The notes under the pieces were generated by a model. The model worked only from the letters and a program-made list of their open reading frames with translations, did no database searches and was not told the origin of the DNA. Positions 4,442 through 40,046 of a stretch of DNA of 64,000 nt are shown here, piece by piece. Within the stretch, counting starts at the first letter, position 1. Each line of letters starts with the position of its first letter. The stretch is from contig CANQUJ010000004.1 in NCBI GenBank assembly GCA_947627005.1, positions 60,217 through 124,216 of the forward strand, read 5' to 3'. Position numbers and translations under genes: made by a program. This DNA comes from an uncultured Clostridia bacterium (GTDB taxonomy: Bacteria > Bacillota > Clostridia > Oscillospirales > Ruminococcaceae).

Positions 4442-5614
4442 ATGCGAAAATTTCAAAAAGAAGCCCTTAAGCGCGCATGGGCCGAGATAAATCTTCCCCG
4501 CCTGCGCTCTAATTTTGAAAAGTGCCGCTCGCTTTTGCCGAAGGGGGTAGAGATGATGACGGTAGTCAAGGCCAACGCCTACGGCCACGGAATCGAGACC
4601 GTCATTCCCTGCCTTGAAAACGACTGCGGGGTGAACTTTTTCGCGGTCTCTAATCTCGTCGAGGCGATAGAGCTTCGCGAACTCGGCGTATCGGGGGAGA
4701 TACTCATTTTGGGCTATACCCCGCCGAAAAACGCCCCCGAGCTTATCGAATACGACATTATCCAGGCGATAACCGAGCGCCGCTATGCCGAAGAGCTTTC
4801 GCGCTGCTGCCCGGCCGGCGAAAAGGTAAGATGCCACATCGCCGTCGACACCGGAATGACGCGGATCGGCATAAGAGGCGAGCTTTCGCCCCTTTGCGAC
4901 GAAGCCGAGGCGATATATAGGCTTCCCTCGCTTTCGGTCGAGGGGCTGTTTACCCACCTTTCGGTCGCAGACAGCGACAGCGAGAGCGACAAAGCCTATA
5001 CCGCCGCGCAGATCGAAAAGCTTGTCGCCCTAAAGACGGAGCTTAACCGCAGGTTTATCATAGTCGAGCATTTACACTTCTTAAATTCCGCCGGGGCGGC
5101 CTATCACCCCGACCCGAGGGGCGACCTTGCGCGGTTCGGGATCATGCTCTTCGGGCTTAAGCCGAATTCTGCGCTTAAACTGCCGGTCGAGCTCGAGCCG
5201 GTCATGGAGCTTAAGGCGATAGTCTCGCAGGTCAAGACGGTCGAGCCCGGGGTAGACGTGAGCTACGGCAGGACCTATACCACCGACAAAAAGACCAGGA
5301 TCGCCGTGGTGACGATAGGCTACGCCGACGGATACCCGAGGCTTCTTTCAAACAAGGCAGAGGTTTTGGTCCGCGGAAAAAGGGCCCCGATAGTCGGCCG
5401 GGTCTGTATGGACCAGCTTATGATAGACGTCACCGAAGTCGGCGAAGTCTGCGAGGGCGACGTCGTCACTCTCTTCGGAAAGGACGGCGGCGAAAGCGTT
5501 TCGGCCGACGAACTTGCGGATATGATCGGAACGATCGGATACGAAATAATCTGCGGGATAAGCCCGAGAGTTCCGAGAATCGCTGTCGACTGCGATACAA
5601 GCGGTAAAATATAA
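4442..5614 (+). CDS. alr: Alanine racemase
   Basis: AWAEINLPRLRSNFEKCRSLL...MTVVKANAYGHG (PLP Lys), VSYGRTYTT, TIGYADGYPR. Confidence 0.95.
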   Translation: MRKFQKEALKRAWAEINLPRLRSNFEKCRSLLPKGVEMMTVVKANAYGHGIETVIPCLENDCGVNFFAVSNLVEAIELRELGVSGEILILGYTPPKNAPELIEYDIIQAITERRYAEELSRCCPAGEKVRCHIAVDTGMTRIGIRGELSPLCDEAEAIYRLPSLSVEGLFTHLSVADSDSESDKAYTAAQIEKLVALKTELNRRFIIVEHLHFLNSAGAAYHPDPRGDLARFGIMLFGLKPNSALKLPVELEPVMELKAIVSQVKTVEPGVDVSYGRTYTTDKKTRIAVVTIGYADGYPRLLSNKAEVLVRGKRAPIVGRVCMDQLMIDVTEVGEVCEGDVVTLFGKDGGESVSADELADMIGTIGYEIICGISPRVPRIAVDCDTSGKI

Positions 5615-6493: not shown

Positions 6494-7783
6494 TTAACTT
6501 CCGATTTCTGTCTTCTGTTTTCTATTTTCCGTCTTCAGTTCTTCCTCTTTTTTGCTCATTTCAAGCTTATGAAGCTCTTCGGTCGCGAAGTGAAGCTTGG
6601 TCAAAACGTTTCTCGCGGTGAGCGGGAAGACGAAATAGGTGTCTTCAAGGGTGCAAAGGTCTATCGCGTCGCCGCGGCCCTTAAAGTCGTATTCGATGTG
6701 AACCGAGCGCATCGAGGCGACCGAGCGGTTGAACTCGAAGCGGCCGTCCAAAATGTCGCCGCTCATCGTAAAGCCGTTTTCGTCGTGGACAAGCTTTACC
6801 TCTCCGAGCGTGCTGAACCCGACTTTGCCGTTTACGAGCCGCTCGAGCCTTGCGACGTCTTCAAAGCGATATCGCCCCTCTTCGACCTCTTTTCTGACGT
6901 TTTCGCGCTCCCATCTGTACCAATCCGGGACGTGGGTGAAGATATCCGGGCCGTTTTCGCGGTGAAGCCGGCAATATTCGTCCATCTCCCAAATCGCGCC
7001 GCACTCGGAGCACCAAAGCTTGGTGCCCTTTGAGTCGGTAGAAAATTCTTTCCCGCAGGCCGGGCACTGATACAGAATTTTGTGGATATTCTGGGCCCGC
7101 TGCTCGCAGGTTATGCGGATCTTATTGTCGCGGATATAGGCGAAGTCGTCGTATTCAAACGCCGACTGGATTCGGCTTTGTATCTCGTCGGCAGAGAGCT
7201 TTTCAACCTCCTGCCGGGTGACTATCTGTTTAAAAACGCCCTCGATCGGGACTTTGCGGTAGGGGTGTTTACACCACTGGGGCGAGCGGATAAAGTTCCC
7301 CTTTGTGATGAACACGCAGACCGGCACCTTGGCCTTTTTCGCAAGCTTGCCGAGGGCGCCGTCTATCTGCTCGTTTATCCCCGCGAGGGAATACCTCGCC
7401 TCGGGATAGATGGTGCAGCAGACCTTCTGGCGGGTCAGCGCGTTTAAAATGTGGCGGACTACCGTCAAGTCGGCGGTGAATTTGCGCTTATATATCCCGC
7501 CGACGCCCCTCATCAGCCATTCCTTGCCGATAAATTCTTCTATCGAGATAACCCAGCTCGTTCGATAGGGGAATATCGCCTTTATAACGAGCGGGAAATC
7601 GACGAAAGAGGCGTGGTTGCAAAGGATAAGAAACGGGGGCTTAAGCCCCTCGCAGCCGAGCTTTTCTATCTTCGCGCCGCCGGCGACTTTTGAATAAAAG
7701 CTCGTTCCGCCCCACTCGAGGGGCATCAAAAACGGCAGCGGCTTTTTGGGCTTTTTCTTGGTATCGAATTTTTCCGAAGACAT
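6494..7783 (-). CDS. PlsC-like 1-acylglycerol-3-phosphate acyltransferase with zinc-ribbon insertion
   Basis: LCNHASFVDFPLV (HX4D), IYPEARYS; YQCPACGKEF...LWCSECGAIWEMDE zinc ribbon in the C-terminal part. Confidence 0.75.
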   Translation of the reverse strand: MSSEKFDTKKKPKKPLPFLMPLEWGGTSFYSKVAGGAKIEKLGCEGLKPPFLILCNHASFVDFPLVIKAIFPYRTSWVISIEEFIGKEWLMRGVGGIYKRKFTADLTVVRHILNALTRQKVCCTIYPEARYSLAGINEQIDGALGKLAKKAKVPVCVFITKGNFIRSPQWCKHPYRKVPIEGVFKQIVTRQEVEKLSADEIQSRIQSAFEYDDFAYIRDNKIRITCEQRAQNIHKILYQCPACGKEFSTDSKGTKLWCSECGAIWEMDEYCRLHRENGPDIFTHVPDWYRWERENVRKEVEEGRYRFEDVARLERLVNGKVGFSTLGEVKLVHDENGFTMSGDILDGRFEFNRSVASMRSVHIEYDFKGRGDAIDLCTLEDTYFVFPLTARNVLTKLHFATEELHKLEMSKKEEELKTENRKQKTEIGS

Positions 7784-18467: not shown

Positions 18468-19226
18468 TAAAAGGTACTCGGCTGCGACGAGAGCGATTTT
18501 GCCGCTCTTAAATTATATCAGAGCCTATAATTTTCCCGCCCTCAGCCGCCCTTGTTAAAAGGAACTCGCTGCGCGAGTGCTATTTTAAGCTCCGATTTTC
18601 AAACAGAAGAACTTAAAAGTGGTGATTCCCAACCCAAACCGCCTGCGCCCGCTGTGAAAAGGTATTCGCTTCGCTCATACTATTTAAGACGCCCTTCCCC
18701 TGACCCCCTCCCGCGGGGAGGGGGATTTCTATCAAACGTGGCTTTAAACCAAAAGCAAAGGGTGTTCCCGCCCGCCGGCCCGCGGGTAAAAGGTATACCC
18801 GCGACCTCGCTCCCGCTCGCTCGTGGGTATGCTATTTTTAGTCACCCCACCCCTTCCCCCCGCCCCTCGAGGGGCGGGGGCTGCGCTATTTTATACTTTC
18901 GCTCAAAGCTTTGCGGGGGTGGGGTGACTTAAATAGTATGAGCGAAGCGAATACCTTTTAGCAAAGGGACGGCGGGTGGGTATTTACTTGTCATATTTTC
19001 GTCCTGCCGCCTAAAGCAACATTCGCGCACGAGCACCTTTCCGCACGTTTGCCGCTGTTCCCCCTCCCTGCGGGAGGGGGTCAGGGGGTGGGCGTTTAAA
19101 ATAATATGAGCGCAGCGAATACCTTTTCACGAAGGGCGGCTGCGGGTGGGAATATGCTTTGCTTTTAAGTATGAACCCAGTGGGCTTGCAATAGAAATAG
19201 CACTCGGCGAAGCCGAGTTCCTTTTA
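18468..19226. repeat. Noncoding island of hairpins with AAAAGG...CTATTTT borders and GC-rich modules
   Basis: Seven related hairpins and a perfect 30-bp inverted repeat (18657-18686 / 18930-18959) enclosing GC-rich palindromic modules; no credible CDS. Confidence 0.8.
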
Positions 19227-28851: not shown

Positions 28852-30729
28852 GTGAATATCGGAAGCTATGACGTTGCGGTTATCGGGGCGGGTCACGCCG
28901 GGGTCGAGGCCGCGCTCGCCTGCGCCCGGCTTGGGCTTAAAACCGCGATTTTTACGATAAGCCTCGATTCTATCGCGAATATGCCCTGCAACCCCTCTAT
29001 CGGCGGGACCGCGAAGGGCCACCTTGTTCGCGAAATAGATGCTTTGGGAGGGGAGATGGCCAAGGCCGCCGACGCGACTTTTTTACAGAGCCGTGTTTTA
29101 AACCTCGGCAAGGGCCCGGCGGTCCACAGCCACCGCGTTCAGGCCGACCGCGTGAAATATCACACCTATATGAAAAAGGTCCTCGAATCGGAGCCGAATC
29201 TCGACATCAAACAGGCCGAGGTCGTAAAGGTCGAGGTCGACGGGCGCGGCGCCGTATGTGAGATAGAGACCAAGCTCGGCTCGCGCTACGGCGTTAAAGC
29301 CGTGATAATCTGCACGGGGACTTATTTGAAGGGCGTCGTTCACGTCGGGGAGACTTCTTACGAGTCCGGCCCAGATTCAACTCTTCCGGCAAACGGGCTT
29401 TCTAAAAGTCTTAGAGAGCTCGGGATAACTCTGCGAAGATTCAAGACCGGCACCCCGGCGAGGGTTCACCGCAGAAGCATAGATTTTTCTAAATTAGAGC
29501 GGCAGGACGGCGACGACGACATCTCGCCGATGTCGTTTGAAACTAAAGGCGAGTTAAAAAACACCGTCTCCTGCTATATAAGCTACACCAACGCCGAGAC
29601 CCATAAGGTAATACTCGAAAACTTAGACCGCTCGCCGCTCTATTCCGGCAGGATAGAGGGGATAGGGCCGAGATATTGCCCCTCGATTGAGGACAAGGTG
29701 GTAAGATTTTCGGACAAGCCCCGCCACCAGCTTTTTATCGAGCCGATGGGGCTTGACACCGAGGAATATTATTTGCAGGGGATGTCTTCGTCGCTGCCCG
29801 AAGAGGTTCAGCTTAAGTTTTTGCGGACGATAGAGGGGCTTGAAAACGTAGAGATAATGCGCAACGCCTACGCCATCGAATACGACTGCTGCGATTCGCT
29901 CGAGCTTTTGCCGACTTTGGAATTTAAAGCGGTTTCGGGGCTATACGGCGCGGGGCAGTTTAACGGAACCTCGGGATATGAAGAGGCGGCCGCGCAGGGG
30001 TTAGTCGCCGGAATTAACGCAGCCTTGAAAATTCTGGAAAAAGAGCCGCTTATTTTAGACCGCACGACATCGTATATCGGAACGCTTATCGACGACCTTG
30101 TCACCAAAGGGGTTCAGGACCCCTACCGAATGATGACCTCGCGGAGCGAATATCGGCTTATTCTTAGAGAAGACAACGCCGACGAGCGGCTTACGCCCTT
30201 CGGCTATAAGGTCGGGCTTATATCGAAAGAGCGCTACGACCGGCTTTTGGCCAAGCTTAGCGCCGTAGACTCGGAGATAAAGCGGCTTAGAGAGACGAAT
30301 ATTTCGCCGAGCGACGAGCTTTCAGCGCTTTTTGTTTCACGTGGAACAATGCCGATAACCGAGGCTTGCTCGATCGAAAAGCTTTTAAAGCGCCCGCAGA
30401 TCACATACGCCGACCTTGCGCCCTTCGACCCAACCCGCCCGAAGCTTTTAAAAGAGGTTTATGAGCAGGCGGAGATTAGGATCAAATACGAGGGGTATAT
30501 AAAGCTTCAACAAGAGCAGGTCGAGAAGACGAGAAAGCTTGAAAGCCGCCTTTTGCCGGAGGATATAGACTATTCCGCGATTCGCGGGCTTAGGCTTGAG
30601 GCCGCCGAGAAGCTTTCAAAGGTTAGGCCGAGGAGCGTAGGGCAGGCGTCGAGAATCTCGGGGGTAAACCCTGCGGACATATCGGTTCTGCTTATCTGGC
30701 TCGAGCAAAAGGGCAGGGCGGAAAGATAG
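28852..30729 (+). CDS. mnmG: tRNA uridine-5-carboxymethylaminomethyl modification enzyme MnmG
   Basis: [46 protein letters not shown]. Confidence 0.97.
30333..30348. promoter_or_regulatory. parS site within mnmG
   Basis: TGTTTCACGTGGAACA; reverse complement TGTTCCACGTGAAACA fits the Firmicute parS consensus TGTTNCACGTGAAACA. Confidence 0.85.
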
Positions 30730-30740
30730 AGCGAAAGGTG

Positions 30741-30809
30741 CGGCCCGCCGCCCCCCGCAGGGGGGCGGGCGCGCCGAAGGCGCGCCTCGCGCGAAGCGCG
30801 TGCGGGCCG
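30741..30809. repeat. Cloverleaf (four-way junction) repeat 1, mnmG-rsmG
   Basis: Outer stem CGGCCCGC/GCGGGCCG enclosing CGCCCCCC-gca-GGGGGGCG, GGCGCGCC-gaa-GGCGCGCC and CGCGC-gaa-GCGCG. Confidence 0.85.
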
Positions 30810-30838
30810 CGAAAAAATGCGCGAAAGGGGAGGAACGG

Positions 30839-31552
30839 ATGGAATTTGTTATACGCGAGAAATTCGAGGAGCTTTTTAACGCCGCGGGAATAAAGCTTTT
30901 AAGCGGCGAGTATGATAAGTTCGCGGAATATGCGCGGCTTTTGGCCGAAAAAAACGCGGTCATGAACCTTACGGCGATTCGTGAGCCGGGCGAAGTCGCG
31001 GAAAAGCATTTTTTAGACAGCGTTTTGCCGCTGAAGCTCTGCGAAGTCCCCCTCGGCGCAAGTCTTTGCGACGTCGGCTCGGGGGCGGGTTTTCCGGGGG
31101 TTCCGATAGCGATTCATCGGCCGGACATCAAGCCCGCGCTCATCGACAGCTTAAACAAGCGTGTCGTTTTTTTGCTCGAGCTCTGCGAAAAAATCGGCGT
31201 CGAAGCGGAGTGCTATCATCTTCGGGCGGAAGAAGCCGGCAGGGGAGCGCTTCGCGAAAAATTCGACGTCGCGACCGCGCGCGCGGTCAGCGGAATGAGG
31301 GTTTTGTGCGAATATTGCTTGCCGCTCGTAAAAGTCGGCGGGGTTTTTTTGGCGCTAAAGGGCGGCGACTGCGCCGACGAGCTTAAAGAGGCTTCGGGCG
31401 CGATCAAAACCCTCGGCGGAAAGGTCGAAAAATCGATCGAATACGCCCTGCCGAGCGGCGACCGCAGAACGCTTGTCGTCGTTAAAAAGCTCGCGCCCAC
31501 ACCCGCCGCCTATCCCCGCGCTTCGGGGAAAATCAGCGCAAAACCGCTTTAG
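30839..31552 (+). CDS. rsmG: 16S rRNA (guanine527-N7)-methyltransferase RsmG
   Basis: NLTAIREPGEVAEKHFLDSVLPL, LCDVGSGAGFPGVPIAI. Confidence 0.95.
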   Translation: MEFVIREKFEELFNAAGIKLLSGEYDKFAEYARLLAEKNAVMNLTAIREPGEVAEKHFLDSVLPLKLCEVPLGASLCDVGSGAGFPGVPIAIHRPDIKPALIDSLNKRVVFLLELCEKIGVEAECYHLRAEEAGRGALREKFDVATARAVSGMRVLCEYCLPLVKVGGVFLALKGGDCADELKEASGAIKTLGGKVEKSIEYALPSGDRRTLVVVKKLAPTPAAYPRASGKISAKPL

Positions 31553-31563
31553 TGCGCTTTCGG

Positions 31564-31654
31564 GGCGGAGCCCCCGCCTGCGGCTTCGCCGCAGGCGCCC
31601 CGCGCGCTTCGCGCGCGGGGGCCGCGCCCGTAGGCGGGCGCGGCGGGCTTCGCC
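31564..31654. repeat. Cloverleaf (four-way junction) repeat 2, rsmG-noc
   Basis: Outer stem GGCGGAGCCC/GGGCTTCGCC (one G-U) enclosing three 10-bp hairpins: CGCCTGCGGC-ttc, CCCCGCGCGC-ttc, GCCGCGCCCG-tagg. Confidence 0.85.
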
Positions 31655-31825
31655 GTCGCTATGCCAAAAACTTTCGCGCGTTTTCCCCTTCGGTCGACTC
31701 AAAATTCTGCCGGTTTATCGCGGCTGCGGTCTTAAAGGCCGCTTTTTTGGCGCTTTTTCGCGGTTTTGCGCGATATTTTCCTCTGGAAATTTCCGAAAAA
31801 CGGTGCTATCCTTTAACCGAAGGAA

Positions 31826-32647
31826 GTGACAAAAATGGCGGTAATTTTTCAGCAAAAAAAGGAAAAAACCCTCGCGCGGGTGGTCGAGATCCCATGCGAA
31901 CAGATCGCCCCGAACCCCTATCAGCCGCGGCAGGATTTCGGGCAAAACGAGCTTTTGTCCCTCGCGGCGAGCATCAAAACCGACGGCATTTTGCAGCCGC
32001 TTTCGGTAAGAAAAATCGGCGACGGCTACGAGCTCATCGCCGGGGAAAGGCGGCTTCGGGCGGCCATTATCGCGGGTTTAGAGGCAGTGCCATGCATAGT
32101 TTCCGAGGTCTCGGACCGCAACTCGGCGCTGCTCGCCCTCGTCGAAAATATCCAGCGGCGCGACCTCGGATTTTTTGAAGAGGCAGACGCCATCTCGCGG
32201 CTCATCGACTTTTACGGCATGACCCAGGAAGACGCTGCGCTTAGGCTCGGCTACGCACAGTCTACCCTCGCGAATAAGCTTCGGCTTCGCAAGCTCGGCG
32301 CCGAAGAGAGGCGGCTGATCGTCGAAAACGGCCTTACCGAGCGCCACGCCAGAGCGCTCTTGCGGCTCGACGACCCCGACAAGCGCGTCTCGGCGATAAA
32401 TACCATCGCCCGCCGAAAGCTCAACGTCGAAAATTCCGAAAAGCTTATCGACTCGATGATCGAATACGACAAATACAAAGAGCGCATCCGCAAGGGCGGC
32501 GCGATTTTTCGCGATCTCCGCCTTTTTATGAACACAGTAAACAAGGCGGTCGAAACTATGCAAATCGCCGGGGTCGACGTAAACGTCGACAAAAAACAGT
32601 CCGACGACTACCTCGACTACCACATTCGCATTCCCCTGAATAAATAG
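31826..32647 (+). CDS. noc: ParB/Noc family DNA-binding protein (Noc-like)
   Basis: ARVVEIPCEQIAPNPYQPRQDFGQNELLSLAASIKTDGILQPLSVR...GERRLRAA...ALVENIQRRDLGFFEEA; first of two ParB paralogues flanking soj. Confidence 0.85.
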   Translation: MTKMAVIFQQKKEKTLARVVEIPCEQIAPNPYQPRQDFGQNELLSLAASIKTDGILQPLSVRKIGDGYELIAGERRLRAAIIAGLEAVPCIVSEVSDRNSALLALVENIQRRDLGFFEEADAISRLIDFYGMTQEDAALRLGYAQSTLANKLRLRKLGAEERRLIVENGLTERHARALLRLDDPDKRVSAINTIARRKLNVENSEKLIDSMIEYDKYKERIRKGGAIFRDLRLFMNTVNKAVETMQIAGVDVNVDKKQSDDYLDYHIRIPLNK

Positions 32648-32696
32648 TGTTTTCGGTCGCCGATTTTCGGCGGCCTGTTTTTTCGCGCCTTGACCC

Positions 32697-32784
32697 GGGC
32701 TTTGCGCGCGCGTTGCCGCAGGCAACGCGCCGGCAGCGCGGCTTTGCCGCGCGGCCCCGCCCGCTTCGCGGGCGGGCGAAGCCC
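32697..32784. repeat. Cloverleaf (four-way junction) repeat 3, noc-soj
   Basis: Outer stem GGGCTTTGC/GCGAAGCCC (one G-U) enclosing GCGCGTTGCC-gca-GGCAACGCGC, GCGCGGC-ttt-GCCGCGC, CCCGCCCGC-ttc-GCGGGCGGG. Confidence 0.85.
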
Positions 32785-32796
32785 CCCTTCCCGCAA

Positions 32797-32812
32797 TGTT
32801 TCACATGAAACA
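32797..32812. promoter_or_regulatory. parS-like site upstream of soj
   Basis: TGTTTCACATGAAACA, one central change from TGTTTCACGTGAAACA. Confidence 0.7.
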
Positions 32813-38077: not shown

Positions 38078-38153
38078 CGGGGTGTAGCGCAGCTGGCAGC
38101 GCGCCTGCTTTGGGAGCAGGATGTCGGGGGTTCAAATCCCTTCACTCCGACCA
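38078..38153 (+). tRNA. tRNA-Pro(TGG), CCA encoded
   Basis: CGGGGTG...CACTCCG acceptor pairing; anticodon arm CCTGC-TTTGGGA-GCAGG; GTTCAAATCCC T-arm; ends ACCA. Confidence 0.93.
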
Positions 38154-38183
38154 TGAAAAAAGCGCCTTTAGGCGCTTTTTTCA
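38154..38183 (+). terminator. Terminator after tRNA-Pro
   Basis: TGAAAAAAGCGCC-ttta-GGCGCTTTTTTCA. Confidence 0.8.
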
Positions 38184-38387
38184 TGGCTGACGTCGTTGGG
38201 TGCGGGGACCCCGTCAAAGCGCAGGCTCATTTTGAAAAACGCAGAGAGAACGAAAATTGCAAAAGCTTCAAATTAAGCAATCGTACGAGCGCTTTGGATC
38301 GGATGGAAGCATTATTTCTCCGCGAGCACGAGCAGGGCAAAAATATACGCCCGCGAAGTGCGAGCGGCAAGAAATAACGCTTCCATT

Positions 38388-38415
38388 GGGGTTACAAATC
38401 CCTTCACTCCGACCA
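38388..38415 (+). pseudogene. tRNA-Pro 3-prime-end remnant
   Basis: GGGGTTACAAATCCCTTCACTCCGACCA matches the 3-prime end of the upstream tRNA apart from changes at the T-loop start; followed by its own terminator-like hairpin. Confidence 0.75.
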
Positions 38416-38460
38416 AAAGAAAAAGCACCGCAAGGGTGCTTTTTCTTTTGGTCTAAGTAG

Positions 38461-38540
38461 TTGGGTACGGAAGCCCACCGCAATCAGAAACAAAGTTTGG
38501 CGAAGCCGAAGGCTTCGCAGAGGCATCGTGCCGGCAGTAA
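38461..38540 (+). repeat. 80-bp direct repeat, copy 1
   Basis: About 76/80 identical by eye to 38625-38704. Confidence 0.85.
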
Positions 38541-38624
38541 CACATCGAACTTTGTTTTGGCGACGCCTTTTCGGCTTTGGCTGTGCGTTAGCGCCTTTAG
38601 GCGCTTTTGTCATGGCTGACGTCG

Positions 38625-38704
38625 TTGGGTGAGGAAGCCCACCGCAATCAGAAACAAAGTTTGGCGAAGCCGAAGGCTTCGCAGAGGCGTCGTGACGGCA
38701 GTAA
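38625..38704 (+). repeat. 80-bp direct repeat, copy 2
   Basis: See copy 1; spacing 164 bp. Confidence 0.85.
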
Positions 38705-39044: not shown

Positions 39045-39619
39045 AAGAGGAATTCGCTGCGCTCATGCTATTTGAATCGCTCCTCCCGGAGTAGGGAGAC
39101 CGCCGAAGGCGGGCTCGCAGCGACGCTGACAAAAGAAATCTTTATCACAAAGTTTTGGGCGTCGCTTGCGCCCACCCCTGCCCCCTCCCGCGGGGAGGGG
39201 GAATAAAAGGAAATAAAGAGATTCAAGAAAGCAAAGCGCTTGCGGCAACAGTTAAAAGGTATCGCGCTCCGCACGATGACATTCTAAAGCCACCCCACCC
39301 CTCTCGCTTCGCTCGCGCCCCCGCCCCTCGAGGGGCGGGGGCTTTGCTATTTTATACTTTCGTTCAAAGCTTTATGGGGGTGGGTGACTAAAAATAGTAT
39401 ACCCCCGAACGAGCGGTTAGCGAGTTCGTGGGTATACCTTTTTGCAATGGGCTGACGCCGGCGTGCCTGATTTTCCATTTTTCTCTGTACCGTCCAAACG
39501 CTTTAAAGCATCGCTCTCGCCCTGCTTTCTTTCAGCACTCTTTTCCTTTGCCCCCTCCCTGCGGGAGGGGGCAGGGGGTGGGCGTCTTAAAATAGTATGA
39601 GCGAAGCGAATACCTTTTA
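39045..39619. repeat. Second island of AAAAGG...CTATTTT hairpins and shared GC-rich modules
   Basis: Contains near-identical copies of modules seen at 18688-18724 and 18841-18928. Confidence 0.8.
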
Positions 39620-40046
39620 GCAGCGGGCAGCGGCGGGCGGGGACTCGTCATATTTCTAAGTGTGCACAGTGGGTATGCAATAAAAATCGCCCTCGTCTCC
39701 GCCGAGCACCATTTAACCGTGGCGCAGTCAGACGAAAGCCCCCTCCCCCCCGGCCGGGTGCCTCCCTCCCTTAAAGCCCCTTACCCATTCTCACGCTTAC
39801 AATCAAAGTAAAACAGTCCAATCAATCCGGCACATTCTTTCGGAAATGTGCAGGTGTCAACCCTATATAGCCAAAAATCCATAATCCGAGCCTCCGCTTT
39901 GTGCCGTCCGCTGATCGTTTATCTCTACCGCAAATTCGCTGCCCCTGTACGCGCTTCAAAACGCTCTTGCACCTTGGCGCCCTTTGTGGTATAATACATC
40001 ATACATCAACGTATTATGTAACTACAACGCCCTTAGGAGATTAGCC

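Follow-up and report, generated by a model that had tools for sequence, protein, structure and literature searches.

Among bacterial palindromic repeats, the REPs, BIMEs and REPINs are short, GC-rich, intergenic, lineage-specific and high in copy number, and they are thought to be non-autonomous mobile elements (PMC3733652, PMC2817692, PMC3116915). REPs are single hairpins of 20–40 bp with a conserved sequence, defined by a GTAG/CGTC tag at one end of the palindrome (PMC3733652), and those carrying GTAG are tied to a RAYT gene. MITEs are dispersed, non-coding units bounded by terminal inverted repeats. Further parallels are found in organelles. The repetitive hairpin-forming elements of sponge mtDNA and the double-hairpin elements of Allomyces mtDNA are multi-hairpin spacer units with conserved stems and changes mainly in the loops, and the Allomyces elements have no target duplications (PMC2800124). 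The palindromic repeats of Volvox carteri organelles are selfish, sometimes nested and closed by short loops of 3–5 nt of constant sequence (PMC2670323). Nematomorph mitochondrial palindromes have perfect arms and almost no imperfect intermediates, which is credited to repeat conversion or template switching (PMC6649704).

In the way it works, the cloverleaf family described here resembles REPs, MITEs and the hairpin elements of organelles; it belongs in full to none of these groups, however, and is best called a variant among the bacterial palindromic repeats. Its units are approximately 70–110 bp long and commonly end in GGGCGAAGCCC...GGGCTTCGCCC around three contiguous hairpins. In contrast to REPs, they form a four-way cloverleaf of free hairpin sequences, carry no GTAG/CGTC tag at these ends or in the printed flanks, and have no matching transposase; the TnpA of the window's own genome (G000) is of the ordinary IS200 type and has no cloverleaf recognised next to it. 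They share terminal inverted repeats with DDE MITEs, but show no target-site duplication and maintain an internal triple-hairpin structure rather than a terminal sequence only. The sponge and Allomyces elements differ in being mitochondrial, with no fixed outer stem around three hairpins and no C(GNA)G rule described (PMC2800124), the Volvox repeats in being organellar, AT-rich or sequence-conserved single hairpins with a TAAA/TTTA loop (PMC2670323), and the nematomorph palindromes in being single long inverted repeats within genes, not dispersed (PMC6649704).

Three cloverleafs lie in the window, the whole stretch of 64,000 nt that was analysed. An initial annotation had placed an outer stem around three near-perfect GC hairpins in each of three spacers, mnmG-rsmG, rsmG-noc and noc-soj, and reading and folding the sequence confirms both the structures and their positions:

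30740–30810, no strand assigned: cloverleaf 1, between mnmG and rsmG, 10 nt past the mnmG stop; outer stem GCGGCCCGC/GCGGGCCGC of 9 bp; hairpins CCGCCCCCC-GCA, GGCGCGCC-GAA and CGCGC-GAA
31564–31654, no strand assigned: cloverleaf 2, between rsmG and noc, 11 nt past the rsmG stop; outer stem GGCGGAGCCC/GGGCTTCGCC of 10 bp with one G.T; hairpins CGCCTGCGGC-TTC, CCCCGCGCGC-TTC and GCCGCGCCC-GTAG
31564–31573, + strand: left outer arm of cloverleaf 2, a variant of the family terminal inverted repeat (GGGCGAAGCCC/GGGCTTCGCCC)
31645–31654, + strand: right outer arm of cloverleaf 2, GGGCTTCGCC, the canonical terminal inverted repeat
32697–32784, no strand assigned: cloverleaf 3, between noc and soj, 49 nt past the noc stop; outer stem GGGCTTTGC/GCGAAGCCC of 9 bp with one T.G; hairpins GCGCGTTGCC-GCA, GGC(A)GCGCGGC-TTT and CCCGCCCGC-TTC

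The annotated coordinates were correct within 1 nt; cloverleaf 1 is one base longer at each end, and its outer stem has 9 bp, not 8. The loops are mostly of 3 nt (GCA, GAA, TTC or TTT), as had been described, the third hairpin of cloverleaf 2 having the 4-nt loop GTAG, and the hairpins are indeed perfect or near-perfect, with an interior mismatch in one hairpin of cloverleaf 3. The energies predicted with RNA parameters are −64, −90 and −73 kcal/mol for cloverleafs 1, 2 and 3, respectively. Two parS-like sites bracket the three structures, one inside mnmG (30333–30348, a perfect TGTTCCACGTGAAACA) and one in the noc-soj spacer (32797–32812, one mismatch).

A detector built for the cloverleaf plan, which requires an outer stem and chained hairpins and is scored from base pairs (working threshold at least 28), gives these three structures scores of 31, 38.5 and 34.5. 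Scanning 1.60 of the 2.07 Mb of the window's genome with it yields 24 cloverleafs at or above this threshold, compared with one in 8.0 Mb of locally shuffled sequence (60-nt blocks) and none when the bases of the elements themselves were shuffled 1800 times, so the density is not that of shuffled sequence and the proposal that the structures are more than simple GC-rich filler is borne out. The hairpin sequences of the other copies in this genome all differ, while their plan is common and their outer stem is often GGCGAAGCCC...GGGCTTCGCC. A clustering near the origin, hinted at by the first 0.46 Mb, was gone once more sequence had been scanned.

The family extends to related genomes and is restricted to one genus. 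Relatives, chosen by Noc identity, are uncultured Clostridia from the rabbit gut; all genomes compared are MAGs, largely from one sampling effort, with 0.4 Mb read of each of G027 and G021 and genes called by a simple in-house scorer. The terminal inverted repeat (TIR) GCGAAGCCC...GGGCTTCGC, searched as the exact pattern GCGAAGCCCN{45,75}GGGCTTCGC, has 9 copies in the window's genome and far more in some congeners (205 in G027, 165 in G021, 73 in G028 and 28 in G022), but none in about half of the genus; the same pattern reversed is absent from every genome. Among 299 genomes of the bacterial family (126 genera), credible copies are found in this genus only, a single match in another genus (G301) having an interior printed without the hairpin series. 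The covariance model that had been suggested as a check was built from 36 normalised copies and matches 16 of 31 genomes of the genus, so further copies do exist; in a wider set of 149 genomes, which represent 124 genera of the family, it finds one match, in the same genus, under strict filters that also miss copies in the window's genome. No match was obtained in a plasmid search. Phages provided no copies either: 41 IMG/VR matches to the TIR pattern are chance sequences without the three-hairpin element at the working threshold. No Rfam 15 family matches the cloverleafs (the best hit has 15.9 bits and E 0.37, where the cut-off is 48 bits), a scan of the whole window with Rfam returns one tRNA and nothing else, and the literature searched contains no named bacterial cloverleaf repeat, in line with the initial annotation, which did not recognise a named repeat family.

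Other repeats were noticed alongside. The window's genome harbours a second family of approximately 75–80 bp with two long hairpins (CAGTCC.../...AGAGGG) and the ends gtgaattgaa and tttaattcgc, at L013:11151, L106:15516, L113:17451, L127:5590 and L128:9935. A GC-rich dispersed repeat containing hairpins of CCCCCGCCCCTCGAGGGGCGGGGG and of CCCCCTCCC occurs twice in the window, 20.5 kb apart (18857–19176 and 39318–39667), and similar hairpins are present in relatives. Directly 3′ of the tRNA at 38078–38150 lie two repeats of 100 nt each, which contain GCGAAGCCGAAGGCTTCGC hairpins as well as long AT-rich ones (38151–38704). Four IMG/VR viral contigs (L278, L284, L285 and L286) carry a different palindromic repeat, GGGCGAAGCCCTGAGTGT...ACACTCAGGGCTTCGCC.

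The cloverleafs disperse as a discrete unit with lineage-specific amplification. In G027, 77-bp copies with 0–3 differences among them stand in unrelated flanks, as is expected of a mobile repeat. Complementarity between the left and right flanks of a copy does not exceed that between flanks taken from different copies, which places the limits of the palindrome at the outer stem; a longer palindrome extending past it is ruled out on the same grounds, the flanks in G027 being merely G-rich toward the element. Candidate pairs of outer mini-hairpins have complementary loops in 75 of 88 cases, which indicates that the long-range outer stem is real and that the unit is more than a series of five hairpins. 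Matches between the two flanks at k=4–8 are no commoner than in a cross-pair control using flanks of different copies, that is, no target-site duplication was detected. Nearly all copies are intergenic, with a few enclosed in predicted ORFs; 11 of 24 in the window's genome begin 9–31 nt past a stop codon, and some copies sit between divergent genes. Since the copies in the window's genome are all different from one another, no recent transposition is visible there.

The loops follow a rule of their own. Triloops are of the GNA/TNC type in 190 of 217 cases, and 182 of these 190 are closed by a C-G pair, compared with 36% GNA/TNC among other GC-rich hairpins of the same genomes. GNA loops closed in this way form an extraordinarily stable DNA mini-hairpin (PMC4686876). 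In the cloverleafs, C(GNA)G triloops occur on either strand regardless of gene direction, and individual loops flip: the sole difference between the copies at L143:434 and L190:13726 is a loop change from TTC to GAA, and among hairpin pairs with a common arm the loop is flipped in 121 and in the same orientation in 150. Whole interiors can also be inverted. An orthologous mnmG-rsmG cloverleaf is common to three species and has its interior inverted in one of them, the identity between L025 and L027 being 0.89 inverted versus 0.64 direct (shuffled maximum 0.67); in L028 and L030 there is no spacer at all between these two genes, the flanking spacer sequence being absent as well. The rsmG-noc orthologues of three species share 72–75% interior identity, and their outer stems are altered yet still pair. 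Cloverleafs 1 and 2 of the window are too diverged from these orthologues to prove common descent. In several congeners (L024, L026, L029, L031, L032 and L033), the noc gene itself (31850–32644 in the window) has its orientation reversed with respect to mnmG and soj. In L033, it is flanked by inverted cloverleaf copies (5113–5207 and 7383–7477), and recombination between them may have flipped it.

The fold is kept at the DNA level, not at the RNA level, and it is strand-symmetric. More than 98% of stem pairs are Watson-Crick, and across three genomes the mismatches G.T (23) and A.C (20) are equally rare; intermediates between paired changes are almost absent, and the transcribed strand has no excess of the G.U pairs through which a structural RNA would change. 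GNA loops are divided about equally between the sense and antisense strands of co-directional genes (about 50 vs 52). In the 36-sequence alignment, 307 cells have both partners of a pair changed and 4 have a single partner changed, figures that describe the pattern of change and not selection because the copies were chosen for folding. The view that the fold is retained while the sequence diverges is thus supported; of the three roles offered for it, the mobile palindromic unit or DNA hairpin fits and the RNA processing element is not supported, given the lack of strand preference and wobble excess. Selection on the fold, which had also been proposed, is shown only in part: one copy, between phoU and phoB, looks selected, but hairpin-templated copying of one arm from the other might be enough to maintain perfect stems.

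In the phoU-phoB cloverleaf, all stem bases of the main arms are invariant in six species whose phoU third codon positions differ by 20%, and differences are confined to the loops, one of them being a full TTC/GAA flip. If arm copying acted alone, the pairs would be expected to change at a rate close to neutral; selection therefore probably acts on this copy, which has perhaps been co-opted. Horizontal transfer of the element alone was rejected as the source of these near-identical copies, the whole pst-pho cluster being orthologous and highly similar.

Several other explanations have to be weighed. That chance GC-rich filler makes the cloverleafs could appeal to the other GC-rich hairpins of the window's genome, but the shuffled controls already refute it, as do the 41 chance terminal-repeat matches among 2.9 million viral contigs, which include no three-hairpin cloverleaf at the working threshold, and it retains virtually no probability. 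An RNA element, acting in the mRNA as a 3′-end stabiliser, processing site or terminator with its fold under RNA selection, would suit the copies that begin shortly past a stop codon and the strongly conserved phoU-phoB copy, which is preceded by the end of an operon and followed by a promoter-like sequence. We nevertheless consider it improbable: besides the missing G.U excess and the indifference of the loops to transcription direction, copies are also found between divergent genes, loops and entire interiors flip, the printed sequences have no T-run downstream of the structures and Rfam offers no match.

Three further proposals concern how such units arise or move. Perfect arms, loop flips and in-place inversion are what replication template switching in GC-rich spacers would produce if it created and perfected hairpins without any movement, and template switching is known to perfect quasi-palindromes (PMC3820800) and has been discussed for nematomorph mtDNA (PMC6649704); identical 77-bp units at many sites with unrelated flanks, conserved terminal repeats, a fixed three-hairpin plan and the confinement of 9 to 205 copies of one TIR pattern to a single genus leave this purely mutational origin with a small likelihood. 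Equally doubtful is a REP/BIME-type or IS200/IS605-derived miniature element moved by a Y1 (RAYT-like) transposase. It would account for hairpin-based, intergenic units without target duplication, and intact IS200-type TnpA genes do exist (one in the window's genome, two in G027), but the ends carry no GTAG/CGTC tag, the length is far above that of REPs and the IS200 gene in the window's genome has no recognised cloverleaf as a neighbour. Moreover, Y1 survives merely as decayed fragments in G021, which has 165 copies, and is absent from G028, which has 73, so this transposase, the only one tested, does not explain copy number and was rejected as the driver. A MITE that shares its 11-bp terminal repeats with a DDE transposase element would explain the precise ends, but is made slightly more doubtful still by flank matches that do not exceed the cross-pair control at k=4–8 and by three internal perfect hairpins, which are not a MITE feature. 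An autonomous partner with the same ends was not recognised in passing in the DNA examined, and MAG assemblies often miss IS copies.

We favour, with a probability of roughly 60%, the reading that each cloverleaf is a copy of a palindromic DNA element that is dispersed, specific to the genus, selfish and non-autonomous, that lands in intergenic DNA and that has its stems re-perfected by hairpin-templated copying. Such an element would fold as single-stranded DNA or as a cruciform during replication or transfer, and the folded form may be what is recognised or copied. Hairpin-templated synthesis, with template switching between arms, would re-perfect the stems and flip the loops, so that through arm copying the stems could drift in sequence yet stay complementary; mobilisation would take place in trans. 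Arm-templated resynthesis has been proposed for quasi-palindromes (PMC3820800) and nematomorph palindromes (PMC6649704). Against the favoured reading stand the failure to find a mobilising enzyme, Y1 transposase being missing or decayed in two of the three genomes richest in copies (although MAGs often miss IS copies), the lack of target-site duplication and of recent transposition visible in the window's genome, and the invariant phoU-phoB stems, which depart from the prediction of neutral drift with arm copying.

A bolder version, which we regard as conceivable although rather unlikely, is that the mobile element is defined by its shape: a four-way-junction cloverleaf of C(GNA)G-capped hairpins, read as single-stranded or cruciform DNA by a structure-specific replication, repair or transfer enzyme, with its arms rewritten from each other. 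To our knowledge, most bacterial mobile palindromes are recognised by sequence. What stays constant here is the overall plan, the kind of triloop and a short repeat at the termini, and the stems change freely yet remain perfect; if the shape-defined version is true, this would be a bacterial replicating unit whose fold is its heritable identity. For the genus, copies on either side of noc may account for the inversion of this gene in several related species. The family would provide a natural system for asking whether DNA hairpins or cruciforms are frequent enough in vivo to shape genomes, what keeps the arms of a palindrome identical and by what means short repeats can spread when no transposase is evident.
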